Source: Prosthecobacter sp. SYSU 5D2
GTDB taxonomy: Bacteria > Verrucomicrobiota > Verrucomicrobiia > Verrucomicrobiales > Verrucomicrobiaceae
Direction of reading: 5' to 3'
Length of the DNA stretch: 64,000 nt
NCBI RefSeq assembly: GCF_039655865.1
Contig: NZ_JBBYXL010000004.1
Location: 186,001-250,000, forward strand
The notes under the pieces are model-generated. The model ran no database searches and was not told the origin of the DNA. It worked only from the letters and a program-made list of their open reading frames with translations. This document shows positions 52,615 through 54,423 of this stretch, piece after piece (position 1 is the first letter of the stretch; each line of letters starts with the position of its first letter). The position numbers and the translations under genes are program-made.

Positions 52615-53304
52615 GTGCGCCTGGACGTCATCACTCTGTTTCCTGAACTCATCACTGTTCCGATGGGCACAAGCATCATGGGTCGGGCCCAGGAGAAGGG
52701 GGCGGTGGAGGTACATGTGCATGATCTGCGGGAGCATGGGCTGGGCCGGCACAAACAGGTGGATGATACGCCGTATGGCGGGGGGCAAGGGATGCTGCTG
52801 AGGCCGGAGCCGCTGTTCGCGGCGCTGGAGAAGGTGCATACGGAGAAGGCGCGGGTGATTTTGATGTCGCCTGCGGGGAGGCGTTTTGACCAGGCGGCGG
52901 CGCAGCGGCTGGCTGGGGAGGAGCATCTGATTTTCCTGTCCGGACACTATGAGGGCATGGACCAGCGGGTGGTGGACCACTGGGTGGATGAGGAGCTGAG
53001 CCTGGGTGACTATGTGCTGACGAACGGGGCCATCGCGGCGGTGGTGGTGATGGACGCGATTGTGCGGCTGCTGCCGGGGGTGCTGGGGGATGACCTGAGC
53101 GCGGTGGAGGAGTCCTTTGGCGCAAGCGGGCTGCTGGAAGCACCGCACTACACGAAGCCGGCGGAGTTTGAGGGACTGCGGGTGCCGGATATTTTACTCA
53201 GCGGGAACCATGGGAGGATCGCGGAGTGGCGGCGAGAGCAGGCGCTGGAGAGGACGCGGAGGATGCGGCCGGATTTGTTGGGGGAGGCGGGGGAAGGAGG
53301 GTAA
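52615..53304 (+). CDS. trmD: tRNA (guanine-37-N1)-methyltransferase
   Basis: 229 residues. TrmD methylates G37 next to the anticodon with SAM and prevents frameshifting. Trefoil-knot SPOUT motifs: MRLDVITLFPELIT, PYGGGQGMLLRPEPLF, LIFLSGHYEGMDQRVV, LGDYVLTNGAIAAVVVMDAI and EAPHYTKPAEFEGLRVPDIL. The start is a GTG at 52615; no in-frame ATG fits and no Shine-Dalgarno is seen. The usual rpsP-rimM-trmD-rplS neighbourhood is absent. The last codons and stop form part of a GGGTAAAAAGAT repeat word. Confidence 0.96.
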   Translation: MRLDVITLFPELITVPMGTSIMGRAQEKGAVEVHVHDLREHGLGRHKQVDDTPYGGGQGMLLRPEPLFAALEKVHTEKARVILMSPAGRRFDQAAAQRLAGEEHLIFLSGHYEGMDQRVVDHWVDEELSLGDYVLTNGAIAAVVVMDAIVRLLPGVLGDDLSAVEESFGASGLLEAPHYTKPAEFEGLRVPDILLSGNHGRIAEWRREQALERTRRMRPDLLGEAGEGG

Positions 53305-53346
53305 AAAGATTATTTTTGGTGAGCGAGGACCGGAGACGGGTGTACT

Positions 53347-53610
53347 GGAGCGCGGGCGTCCCGCCTGCTGTTTTCTGCGTCTCGCGGAAAACCGTGATTG
53401 GAGTGGCGAGGAGGCGATGGATGAGCGCAGGAGGAAGGATGCCTGGGGGCGGACGCAAGGAGTGAGGGCATCCTGCCCTCAATATGAGGCCAGGATGGCC
53501 TCACTCCTTGGCCGGGCGTCACAGGACGAGGGGAATCGCTTAGCTTGTCGGGGATCTAGGGACGGTCTTCTGCGGGACGCAGAAGACGGCAGGCGGGACG
53601 CCCGCGCTCC
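53347..53610. repeat. Nested inverted-repeat element between trmD and murI
   Basis: Outer arms are perfect over 22 bp (53347-53368 and 53589-53610, core GCGGGCGTCCCGCCTGC) and continue imperfectly to about 47 bp (53347-53393 and 53564-53610). The arms also contain small palindromes such as CTTCTGCGGGACGCAGAAG. Near the centre lies a second long palindrome, given separately. No open frame of its own is seen. The element ends 3 bases before the murI stop. It occupies most of the 309-base gap between the two convergent genes; 53305-53346 shows nothing else. Confidence 0.85.
53457..53509. repeat. Inner 24-bp palindrome of the nested element
   Basis: Arms 53457-53480 and 53486-53509, with AATAT between, match at 22 of 24 positions (AAGGAGTGAGG ... 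CCTCACTCCTT at the ends). It would fold into a very stable hairpin or cruciform. Confidence 0.85.
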
Positions 53611-53613
53611 ATG

Positions 53614-54423
53614 TTACAGGGTGGCTTTTTTGACTTTGTTGAAGGTGCTGCCGAGGAAGCGTTTGGCGAGAGCTTCGGCCTGCTCGGCGAGGTCGGTGAG
53701 GTAGATGTCGAGAGTGGGTTTTTCGCCGGGGAGGCGGAGGAGGTTTTGTGCCTCAAGCAGGGTTTTCACGTGGGCGGCGCAGGTGCTGGCGCTGTCCACG
53801 AGGCGCAGTTGGTCGCCGAGCATTTTTTTCAACAGGGGGACGAGGAGAGGATAGTGGGTGCAGCCGAGGACGAGGGTGTCCACGCCTTTGTCCAGGAGGG
53901 GAGTCAAATACTCGTGGAGGACGGACTCAAGGGCGGGATGGTCAGTCCAGCCTTCTTCGACGAAGGGGACGAGGAGGGGGGTTGGGATGGCGTGGATCTG
54001 AAGGCCGGGCTTGCGCATGGCGAGTGCGTACTGATACGCACTGCTGCGGATGGTGCCGGCGGTGCCGATGATGCCGACGCGCTCGCAGTTTGGATCTGAC
54101 AGGGTGGCCTCGACGCCGGGCTCCAAGACGCCGATGACAGGAACGCGGAAGGTGGACTGCAGGAGCGGCAGGGCGTGGGCGGTGGCGGTGTTGCAGGCGA
54201 CGATGACGGCCTTGACCCCATGGCCGACGAGGAACTGGGTGTCCTCCACAGAAAAGCGGCGGATGGTGTCGGGGGATTTGGAGCCATAAGGCACACGGGC
54301 GGTATCGCCGAGGTAGATGATGGACTCATCCGGCAGGAGCTCCCGCAGGGCGCGGACGACGGTGAGGCCACCGACGCCGGAATCAAAGACACCGAGGGGG
54401 GCGGAGGAATCAGGAGCGGTCAT
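53614..54423 (-). CDS. murI: Glutamate racemase
   Basis: 269 residues. Makes D-glutamate for peptidoglycan. Catalytic cysteines are in place: VIVACNTATAHALPLL (Cys77) and DTLVLGCTHYPLLVPLL (Cys188, with His190); the N-terminal GVFDSGVGGLTVVRAL holds the conserved Asp. Typical length. The C-terminus ends at the edge of the nested repeat. It diverges from the FtsX-type permease with 112 bases between starts. Confidence 0.96.
   Translation of the reverse strand: MTAPDSSAPLGVFDSGVGGLTVVRALRELLPDESIIYLGDTARVPYGSKSPDTIRRFSVEDTQFLVGHGVKAVIVACNTATAHALPLLQSTFRVPVIGVLEPGVEATLSDPNCERVGIIGTAGTIRSSAYQYALAMRKPGLQIHAIPTPLLVPFVEEGWTDHPALESVLHEYLTPLLDKGVDTLVLGCTHYPLLVPLLKKMLGDQLRLVDSASTCAAHVKTLLEAQNLLRLPGEKPTLDIYLTDLAEQAEALAKRFLGSTFNKVKKATL

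Follow-up and report, generated by a model that had tools for sequence, protein, structure and literature searches.

Two convergent genes in the 64-kb window (the whole stretch of DNA that was analysed), which we take to be trmD and murI on the basis of the first-pass annotation and of known motifs, are separated by a gap filled almost entirely by inverted repeats, and the question raised by this locus is what kind of sequence this is and how it came to lie there. The first-pass annotation had described nested inverted repeats at this place and had proposed a non-autonomous mobile element of the MITE type, a bidirectional terminator, or a recombination or nucleoid-protein site. The nested repeats were confirmed, and the element (53346-53611) occupies 266 of the 309 nt of the gap, 41 nt from the stop of trmD (plus strand, 53304) and 2 nt from the stop codon of murI (minus strand, ending at 53614). 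The outer inverted arms (53346-53395 and 53562-53611) are 50 nt long, 90% complementary and 166 nt apart, with an exact core of 23 nt; they had been annotated as perfect for 22 bp and imperfect to about 47 bp. The inner palindrome is also the one originally described, but its arms (53456-53481 and 53485-53510) measure 26 nt at 92% complementarity and stand 3 nt apart, not 24 bp around a 5-nt loop. The features of the locus are as follows, where R2 and R1 are the covariance models of the outer and inner units.

52615-53304, plus strand: trmD, upstream convergent neighbour, outside the element (ORF; homologues in 53 of 56 genomes)
53346-53395, plus strand: outer unit, left copy, 50 nt, with TGGAGC foot, two hairpins and CCGT tail (78.9 bits, model R2, which was built from this copy among others)
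53352-53368, plus strand: outer hairpin 1, left, 7-bp stem and 3-nt loop (covariation in 10 copies)
53370-53392, plus strand: outer hairpin 2, left, 10-bp stem and 3-nt loop (covariation in 10 copies)
53396-53455, no strand: left spacer, 60 nt, unlike the spacers of other composites in the same genome
53456-53510, plus strand: inner unit, two inverted 26-nt REP-like halves with CAAGG foot (83.9 bits, model R1, which was built from this copy among others)
53463-53481, plus strand: inner hairpin a, 7-bp stem and 5-nt loop (hairpin pairing analysis)
53485-53503, minus strand: inner hairpin b, 7-bp stem and 5-nt loop (hairpin pairing analysis)
53511-53561, no strand: right spacer (stretch compared, 53512-53561)
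53562-53611, minus strand: outer unit, right copy, inverted (79.1 bits, model R2)
53565-53587, minus strand: outer hairpin 2, right, 10-bp stem and 3-nt loop (extracted copies and covariation)
53589-53605, minus strand: outer hairpin 1, right, 7-bp stem and 3-nt loop (extracted copies and covariation)
53614-54423, minus strand: murI, downstream convergent neighbour (ORF)

The outer inverted repeat is not a product of chance. Its 23-nt core is the sole exact inverted repeat of at least 18 nt within 500 nt across the 64-kb window, and none of 20 base-shuffled windows contained such a repeat. Folded as single-stranded DNA, the element exceeded dinucleotide shuffles by 13 to 14 standard deviations on either strand. 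The earlier statement that the element has no coding frame was nearly right: one of the six frames is open through it, as part of an ORF (53117-53704) that overlaps trmD in another frame and is taken to be a non-gene. No target-site duplication was seen by eye at the window element. An identity in Rfam was considered and rejected, the single match being a chance one (E 0.73) far under the gathering score.

A blastn search with the element against the whole of the window's own genome (G000; other G labels denote relatives, and L labels denote loci) gave 39 matches, with 40 of 58 candidates scored. Each match is confined to either the outer or the inner part, apart from the window copy and its own inverse and two longer matches (L013 and L020) that join one outer and one inner part. 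What had been annotated as one nested element is two dispersed repeat families, the outer and inner units being separate, and parts of it occur in many copies in G000, rather than as the single copy, decayed in relatives, that would have argued against a mobile element. The outer unit, 50 nt in length, has a TGGAGC foot and a CCGT tail, between which stand two hairpins with 3-nt loops, the first with a 7-bp and the second with a 10-bp stem. The inner unit, of about 55 nt, has CAAGG at one end and CCTTG at the other; between them lie two hairpins, each with a 7-bp stem and a 5-nt loop, that are usually separated by 3 to 5 nt. It is made of two inverted 26-nt repeats, and solitary half units are present at L035, L036 and L037. 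Ten outer and 15 inner copies served to build covariance models, and these copies match by construction. With these models, G000 contains at least 21 outer matches at E up to 0.1 (at least 14 at 39 bits or more and at least 11 at 69 bits or more) and at least about 30 inner places in 55 matches (at least 19 places at 36 bits or more), most of the inner places being matched on both strands; these counts are lower bounds, because just 150 of 7,595 first-look candidates were scored for the outer model and 150 of 5,918 for the inner model.

The hairpins are conserved in both families, strongly in the outer and modestly in the inner. Across the 10 outer copies, 98.2% of cells were paired versus 87.9% in shuffles, 7 of 17 pairs had changed on both sides, and the covariation score was reached by none of 500 shuffles. 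The small inner hairpins were paired in 95.2% of cells versus 93.4% in shuffles, with slight covariation (1 of 14 pairs changed on both sides). The long 26-bp inner stem was rejected as a conserved structure, since its 82.3% pairing was slightly below that of shuffles (83.9%). The mutual pairing of the two outer arms is therefore a by-product of two inverted copies of a unit that folds on itself. Both families agree with the hairpin-forming palindrome of 20 to 50 nt by which REPs are recognized. They also show the inverted pair of repeats, joined by a linker and copied as one unit, in the form of inner doublets, of outer pairs in relatives and of an array in G034. The GTAG tetranucleotide was not found before the palindrome in either unit, the feet being TGGAGC (outer) and CAAGG (inner), and because the foot is not GTAG the element is filed as REP/TIR type and not as a canonical REP. 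The idea that the repeats were selected to lack stop codons was dropped after frame openness was compared with dinucleotide shuffles: outer units of relatives (n = 65) had 5.11 open frames of 6 versus 4.73 in shuffles (maximum, 5.03 in 200 shuffles), those of the window's own genome (n = 10) had 5.30 versus 4.69 (maximum, 5.30), and inner units (n = 15) had 2.47, below the 4.03 of shuffles. A further REP-like family, with a CAAGGAG foot and a GGGACTTG/CAAGTCCC stem, was observed at L381, L037 and L152, and it brackets a RAYT at L381.

The two families coincide far more often than expected. At 5 of the 10 strong outer places in G000 (11 copies), an inner match lies within 100 nt of an outer one, versus a chance expectation of about 0.02, and all 6 outer copies at those 5 places are oriented with TGGAGC facing away from the inner unit. 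A sixth strong outer place (L032) has a weak inner-like blastn match (E 0.023). Among the G000 composites found, only that of the window has the order outer-inner-outer. The spacers look unrelated in 20 of 21 pairs of own-genome composites; the similarity of the remaining pair (L004/L032) was reached by 2 of 300 shuffles and is marginal among 21 tests. Because the spacers are mostly unrelated, a cassette conserved together with its spacer was rejected as an account of the composite, which is better explained by repeated insertion at one spot. In the relative G034, unlike in G000, outer pairs recur with a similar spacer of about 45 nt (the likeness was judged by eye), and at L149 (G034, C6:365218-365881) the outer pair and its spacer are repeated three times in tandem with a period of 253 nt. 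Two further arrangements were observed in relatives. At L094 (G018, C9:157971-158242), an outer pair stands 215 nt apart from start to start, as in the window, and encloses a different palindrome. At L166 (G016, C1:1510027-1510174), an outer pair without a transposase is apparently read through in frame in a coding sequence (by eye).

The surroundings of these repeats bear on whether the element is a bidirectional transcription terminator, or a stabilizer of RNA 3' ends, for the convergent trmD and murI, a role that is possible but doubtful. The nearness of both stop codons and the strong folding on both strands are what such a role would call for, and two overlapping terminator-like matches were found on the left arm on the plus strand (a scan of 551 nt gave 3 matches, one of them beyond the element, versus 0.4 expected). 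Gene-end placement is also general. Of 26 own-genome places examined, 12 lie between tandem genes, 9 between convergent and 2 between divergent ones, 2 are inside genes and 1 is unclear; the gene pairs of the window, for comparison, are 28 tandem, 9 convergent and 8 divergent. These classes come from an ORF caller trained on the window and from a subset of the model matches, and the numbers are small. The placement at gene ends and the scarcity in divergent gaps agree with the pattern published for REPs (PMC3733652, used in part). However, the plus-strand T run is short, no terminator-like match was found on the minus strand, and the tandem and intragenic places do not suit a device for convergent genes. 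Nor is the arrangement conserved at this locus: murI did not turn up in the up to 1.5 kb examined beside trmD in 29 of 29 relatives' loci, so this gene order was not seen and the trmD-murI site is not comparable between relatives. The proposal of a bidirectional terminator is weakly supported, and any termination of transcripts from trmD and murI would at most be secondary.

Among relatives, outer-model matches were found in 23 of 56 genomes, 22 of them of the same genus, with the window's own genome counted, and inner-model matches were found in 22 of 35 same-genus genomes. Flanks were joined for 15 own-genome sites, 11 of which were searched in 7 relatives; 4 sites, all inner copies and chosen because matches crossed the junction, were aligned, and each of the 4 is without the element in at least one relative. 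At L003 it is absent from 3 of 3 relatives (the flanks are contiguous in G003, with short other sequence in G019 and G034), and at L007 it is absent from the one relative aligned (G018). At L018 it is present in 2 of 4 (G019 and G010) and absent from G034, whereas G018 has a merely partly similar sequence in its place, and at L015 it is present in 2 of 4 (G010 and G019) and not recognizable in G024 and G006. Inner copies come and go between relatives. The own-genome units at L015 and L018 lie within coding frames, and relatives without them exist. For outer copies the empty-site comparison is confined to the recG cassettes described below.

Both families bracket RAYT transposases in relatives. 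In five genomes (G019, G034, G027, G013 and G012), a transposase frame lies between two inverted outer units whose starts are about 537 nt apart. In G019 the 162 aa encoded between them (P0001) match the family model of the REP-associated tyrosine transposase (NF047646) over positions 4 to 145 of 146 with 75.9 bits, just under the cut-off of 80. The structure model of its domain (pLDDT, 88.5) found as its best PDB match 4er8, a RAYT with a REP hairpin (E 4.4e-8; TM score, 0.57), which was also the one PDB match in a sequence-profile search (E 9.4e-6). The catalytic signature is retained in the RAYTs, all 86 sequences having HxH and 83 of them the tyrosine; four sequences in this set repeat a named record. 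Two inner units (53.4 and 38 bits) enclose another RAYT at L293 in G032, and weaker inner-like units (25.6 and 22.1 bits) enclose one at L283 in G015; L282 was not counted as a third inner-bracketed RAYT, its matches being weak (24.7 and 13.5 bits). In G000 the agreement is in feet and layout only. The RAYT at L022 is enclosed by TGGAGC with a 7-bp stem and a 3-nt loop, the layout of outer hairpin 1, with weak outer-model matches on both sides (19.3 and 17.0 bits, and 14.9 further off), and the RAYT at L024 stands between doublets that have a CAAGGAG foot and the inner unit's layout but another stem. Apart from the weak matches at L022, no exact outer or inner units were found around the G000 RAYTs looked at, and the G019 RAYT has no close relative in G000 at E 1e-10 or better. 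A RAYT-like gene of a different kind was observed at L378 (G000, C8:94398-94796), flanked by direct copies of a longer, unrelated repeat.

These results leave little room for a single MITE, that is, a 266-bp transposon with 50-bp terminal inverted repeats moved whole by a DDE transposase. The exact 23-nt arms and their TIR-like outward orientation would suit it, but a second full-length copy was absent among the blastn and model matches in G000, the units occur alone, the composites have mostly unrelated spacers, each outer unit has covarying hairpins of its own, the bracketed genes identified encode RAYT-like tyrosine transposases, and the ends of the units are the REP/TIR hairpins of such transposases. 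This reading is largely refuted, and we regard it as highly improbable. A site for recombination or for binding of a nucleoid protein (dif-like, gyrase or IHF-type) is equally improbable. Palindromic DNA at gene ends and the genome-structuring roles described for REP/BIME sequences (PMC8266576, used in part) would agree with it, but the units are dispersed and variable with no fixed chromosomal position, the outer hairpins covary, and the inner copies are present or absent between relatives.

The window element is very probably a composite, non-autonomous palindromic element of the REP/TIR (BIME/REPIN) type, in which two inverted double-hairpin outer units flank a doublet of a second palindromic repeat and each family would be the end-repeat of its own RAYT-clade single-strand transposase (HUH, tyrosine). 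The broader proposal of a non-autonomous mobile element thus stands, on the dispersed repeats, the presence and absence of inner copies and the RAYTs bracketed in sister genomes. The transposase would recognize a hairpin and its foot on single-stranded DNA and would cut and rejoin there. It may have spread copies of a unit or doublet in trans to sites where insertion is tolerated, most of them directly behind genes, and the inner doublet and the outer copies may have accumulated in this way at one spot between trmD and murI. Movement of the copies by these RAYTs is inferred, as are the sequence of events and any effects on transcripts. Counting against the REP/TIR reading are copy numbers that are low for REPs, the departure from GTAG, the score of P0001 under its cut-off, the slight inner covariation and the lack of exact units around the G000 RAYTs looked at.

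The five outer-bracketed cassettes are located inside recG. A RecG C-terminal query matched in 34 of 35 genomes of the genus, and in 7 of these 34 the recG open frame contains a RAYT and is 796 to 956 aa long; the other 27 frames have at most 716 aa, including that of G000 (698 aa), and at least one of them (G022) is a fragment. At the recG insertion site, 6 loci have the insert and 23 have none, among the 29 of 30 fetched loci that were compared, and the insert always lies before IVIGTHAL. The RAYTs of G019 and G034 differ by 38 synonymous and 3 nonsynonymous codons, which indicates purifying selection in this one pair. The repeat arms are predicted from the reading frame to be translated as linkers around the transposase. 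In a low-confidence model of the RecG-RAYT fusion (mean pLDDT, 64.6, with repeat-arm stretches below 50), there is a hint that the RAYT may fold as a separate part.

The same condition recurs in other host genes. A search of named genomes, with 80 of 193 matches kept, gave 79 Verrucomicrobiota loci (L188 to L273 among the RAYT loci), and at 75 of them the RAYT frame extends at least 150 aa on one side, a share that is biased because the loci were found with a recG-embedded query. The frame extends on both sides at 66 loci, several of those without a two-sided extension ending at contig ends. By motif, the hosts are alaS (31), recG (30) and carB (1), and by eye the remaining 17 loci comprise metH (7), thrS (5), priA (1) and four stand-alone genes (L228, L234, L235 and L240), which are the 4 of 79 loci that lack an extended frame. 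In Pfam or NCBIfam scans, one or two ORFs were confirmed for each of recG, alaS, thrS, metH, priA and carB, as well as a glycosyltransferase around L022 and a dehydrogenase around L283. The Pfam Y1_Tnp domain was above its cut-off at L247, L210, L218, L205, L022 and L283 and below it at L194, L195 and L229; among the matches listed there was none for L267. NF047646 was found in all five long ORFs scanned (part of L091, L247, L022, L210 and L218) at 67.7 to 80 bits, against a cut-off of 80, with the metH-embedded L218 at 80.0 bits. Within metH, two different inter-domain insertion sites are used (L218 and L229). In a broader sample of 115 genomes of the phylum, RAYT matches were found in 65, and 13 of the 150 RAYT matches listed lie in open frames of at least 600 aa, the host gene having been checked for L022. 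This locus (G000, C18:32051-32350) has its RAYT in frame inside a glycosyltransferase, in a frame of 757 aa; ATGG stands at both ends, 732 nt apart (by hand), and the host frame is thus kept. At L283 (G015) and L284 (G009), the RAYT lies in a frame of about 956 aa, the host at L283 being a dehydrogenase/oxidoreductase.

It is possible that an intein-like transposon of the Verrucomicrobiota, residing in frame in host genes, left the outer repeat as its footprint, a reading for which we would put the chances at even. In such a scheme the RAYT would be a passenger domain inside RecG, AlaRS, ThrRS, MetH, PriA and CarB, joined to its host by linkers that the repeat arms encode; the host gene would give the transposase expression and protection from loss; and gene ends would receive non-autonomous satellites shed by the transposon, the window element among them. 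The window element itself is a modest new case of a known class. What it adds is REP/TIR systems of the Verrucomicrobiota with other feet and double hairpins, and an accumulation of two families at one spot. The in-frame loci pose the questions of how an aminoacyl-tRNA synthetase or a RecG helicase works with an inserted DNA-cutting enzyme and of whether the element owes its persistence to residence in a host gene.

Inteins with homing nuclease domains also place a mobile DNA-cutting domain in frame inside conserved enzymes, and the in-frame RAYTs resemble them in this respect. They differ in that inteins carry a splicing domain, whereas none was found among the Pfam and NCBIfam matches listed for the RAYT ORFs scanned. 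In the open-access literature, supplements excepted, we found no description of recG, alaS, thrS or metH carrying the transposase gene itself in frame. A previous survey (PMC6006769, used in part) discarded a few unexpectedly long proteins and put them down to gene fusions or annotation errors, and surveys that drop overlong transposases may have missed in-frame RAYTs.

REPINs and BIMEs are REP doublets mobilized by a RAYT (PMC3116915 and PMC8266576, each used in part). According to these parts of the sources, they share with the window element short hairpin repeats, inverted doublets with a linker, a mostly extragenic location near the 3' ends of genes and a link to RAYTs; they differ in having a GTAG foot, in place of TGGAGC and CAAGG, and in copy number, with hundreds for BIMEs and REPINs versus the tens found here. 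An outer unit with two hairpins and the nesting of two families at one site also set the window element apart from those accounts. The TIRtrons, RAYT-like genes (TIRYT transposases) flanked by terminal inverted repeats (Di Nocera 2013, PMC3733652, used in part), are alike in that the genes lie within longer, partly double-palindromic, non-GTAG inverted repeats with possible repeat families, and long non-GTAG inverted repeats around a RAYT-like gene are what we found. The motif GGGGWSAS, common to some of those TIRs, was not seen by eye in the arms studied here; their sequence is GGAGCGC or GGGGAGC, in which a C replaces the A of the motif. A further difference from the TIRtrons, as they are described there, is that the transposase here is often in frame inside a host gene. 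Rickettsia palindromic elements are palindromic repeats inserted in frame in genes, and Opitutus terrae, also of the Verrucomicrobia, is rich in intragenic REPs (both PMC3733652, in part). In these accounts the repeats alone are the inserts, whereas here a whole REP-RAYT-REP cassette is read through in frame; intragenic REPs have thus already been published, and it is the in-frame transposase that is the part worth following.
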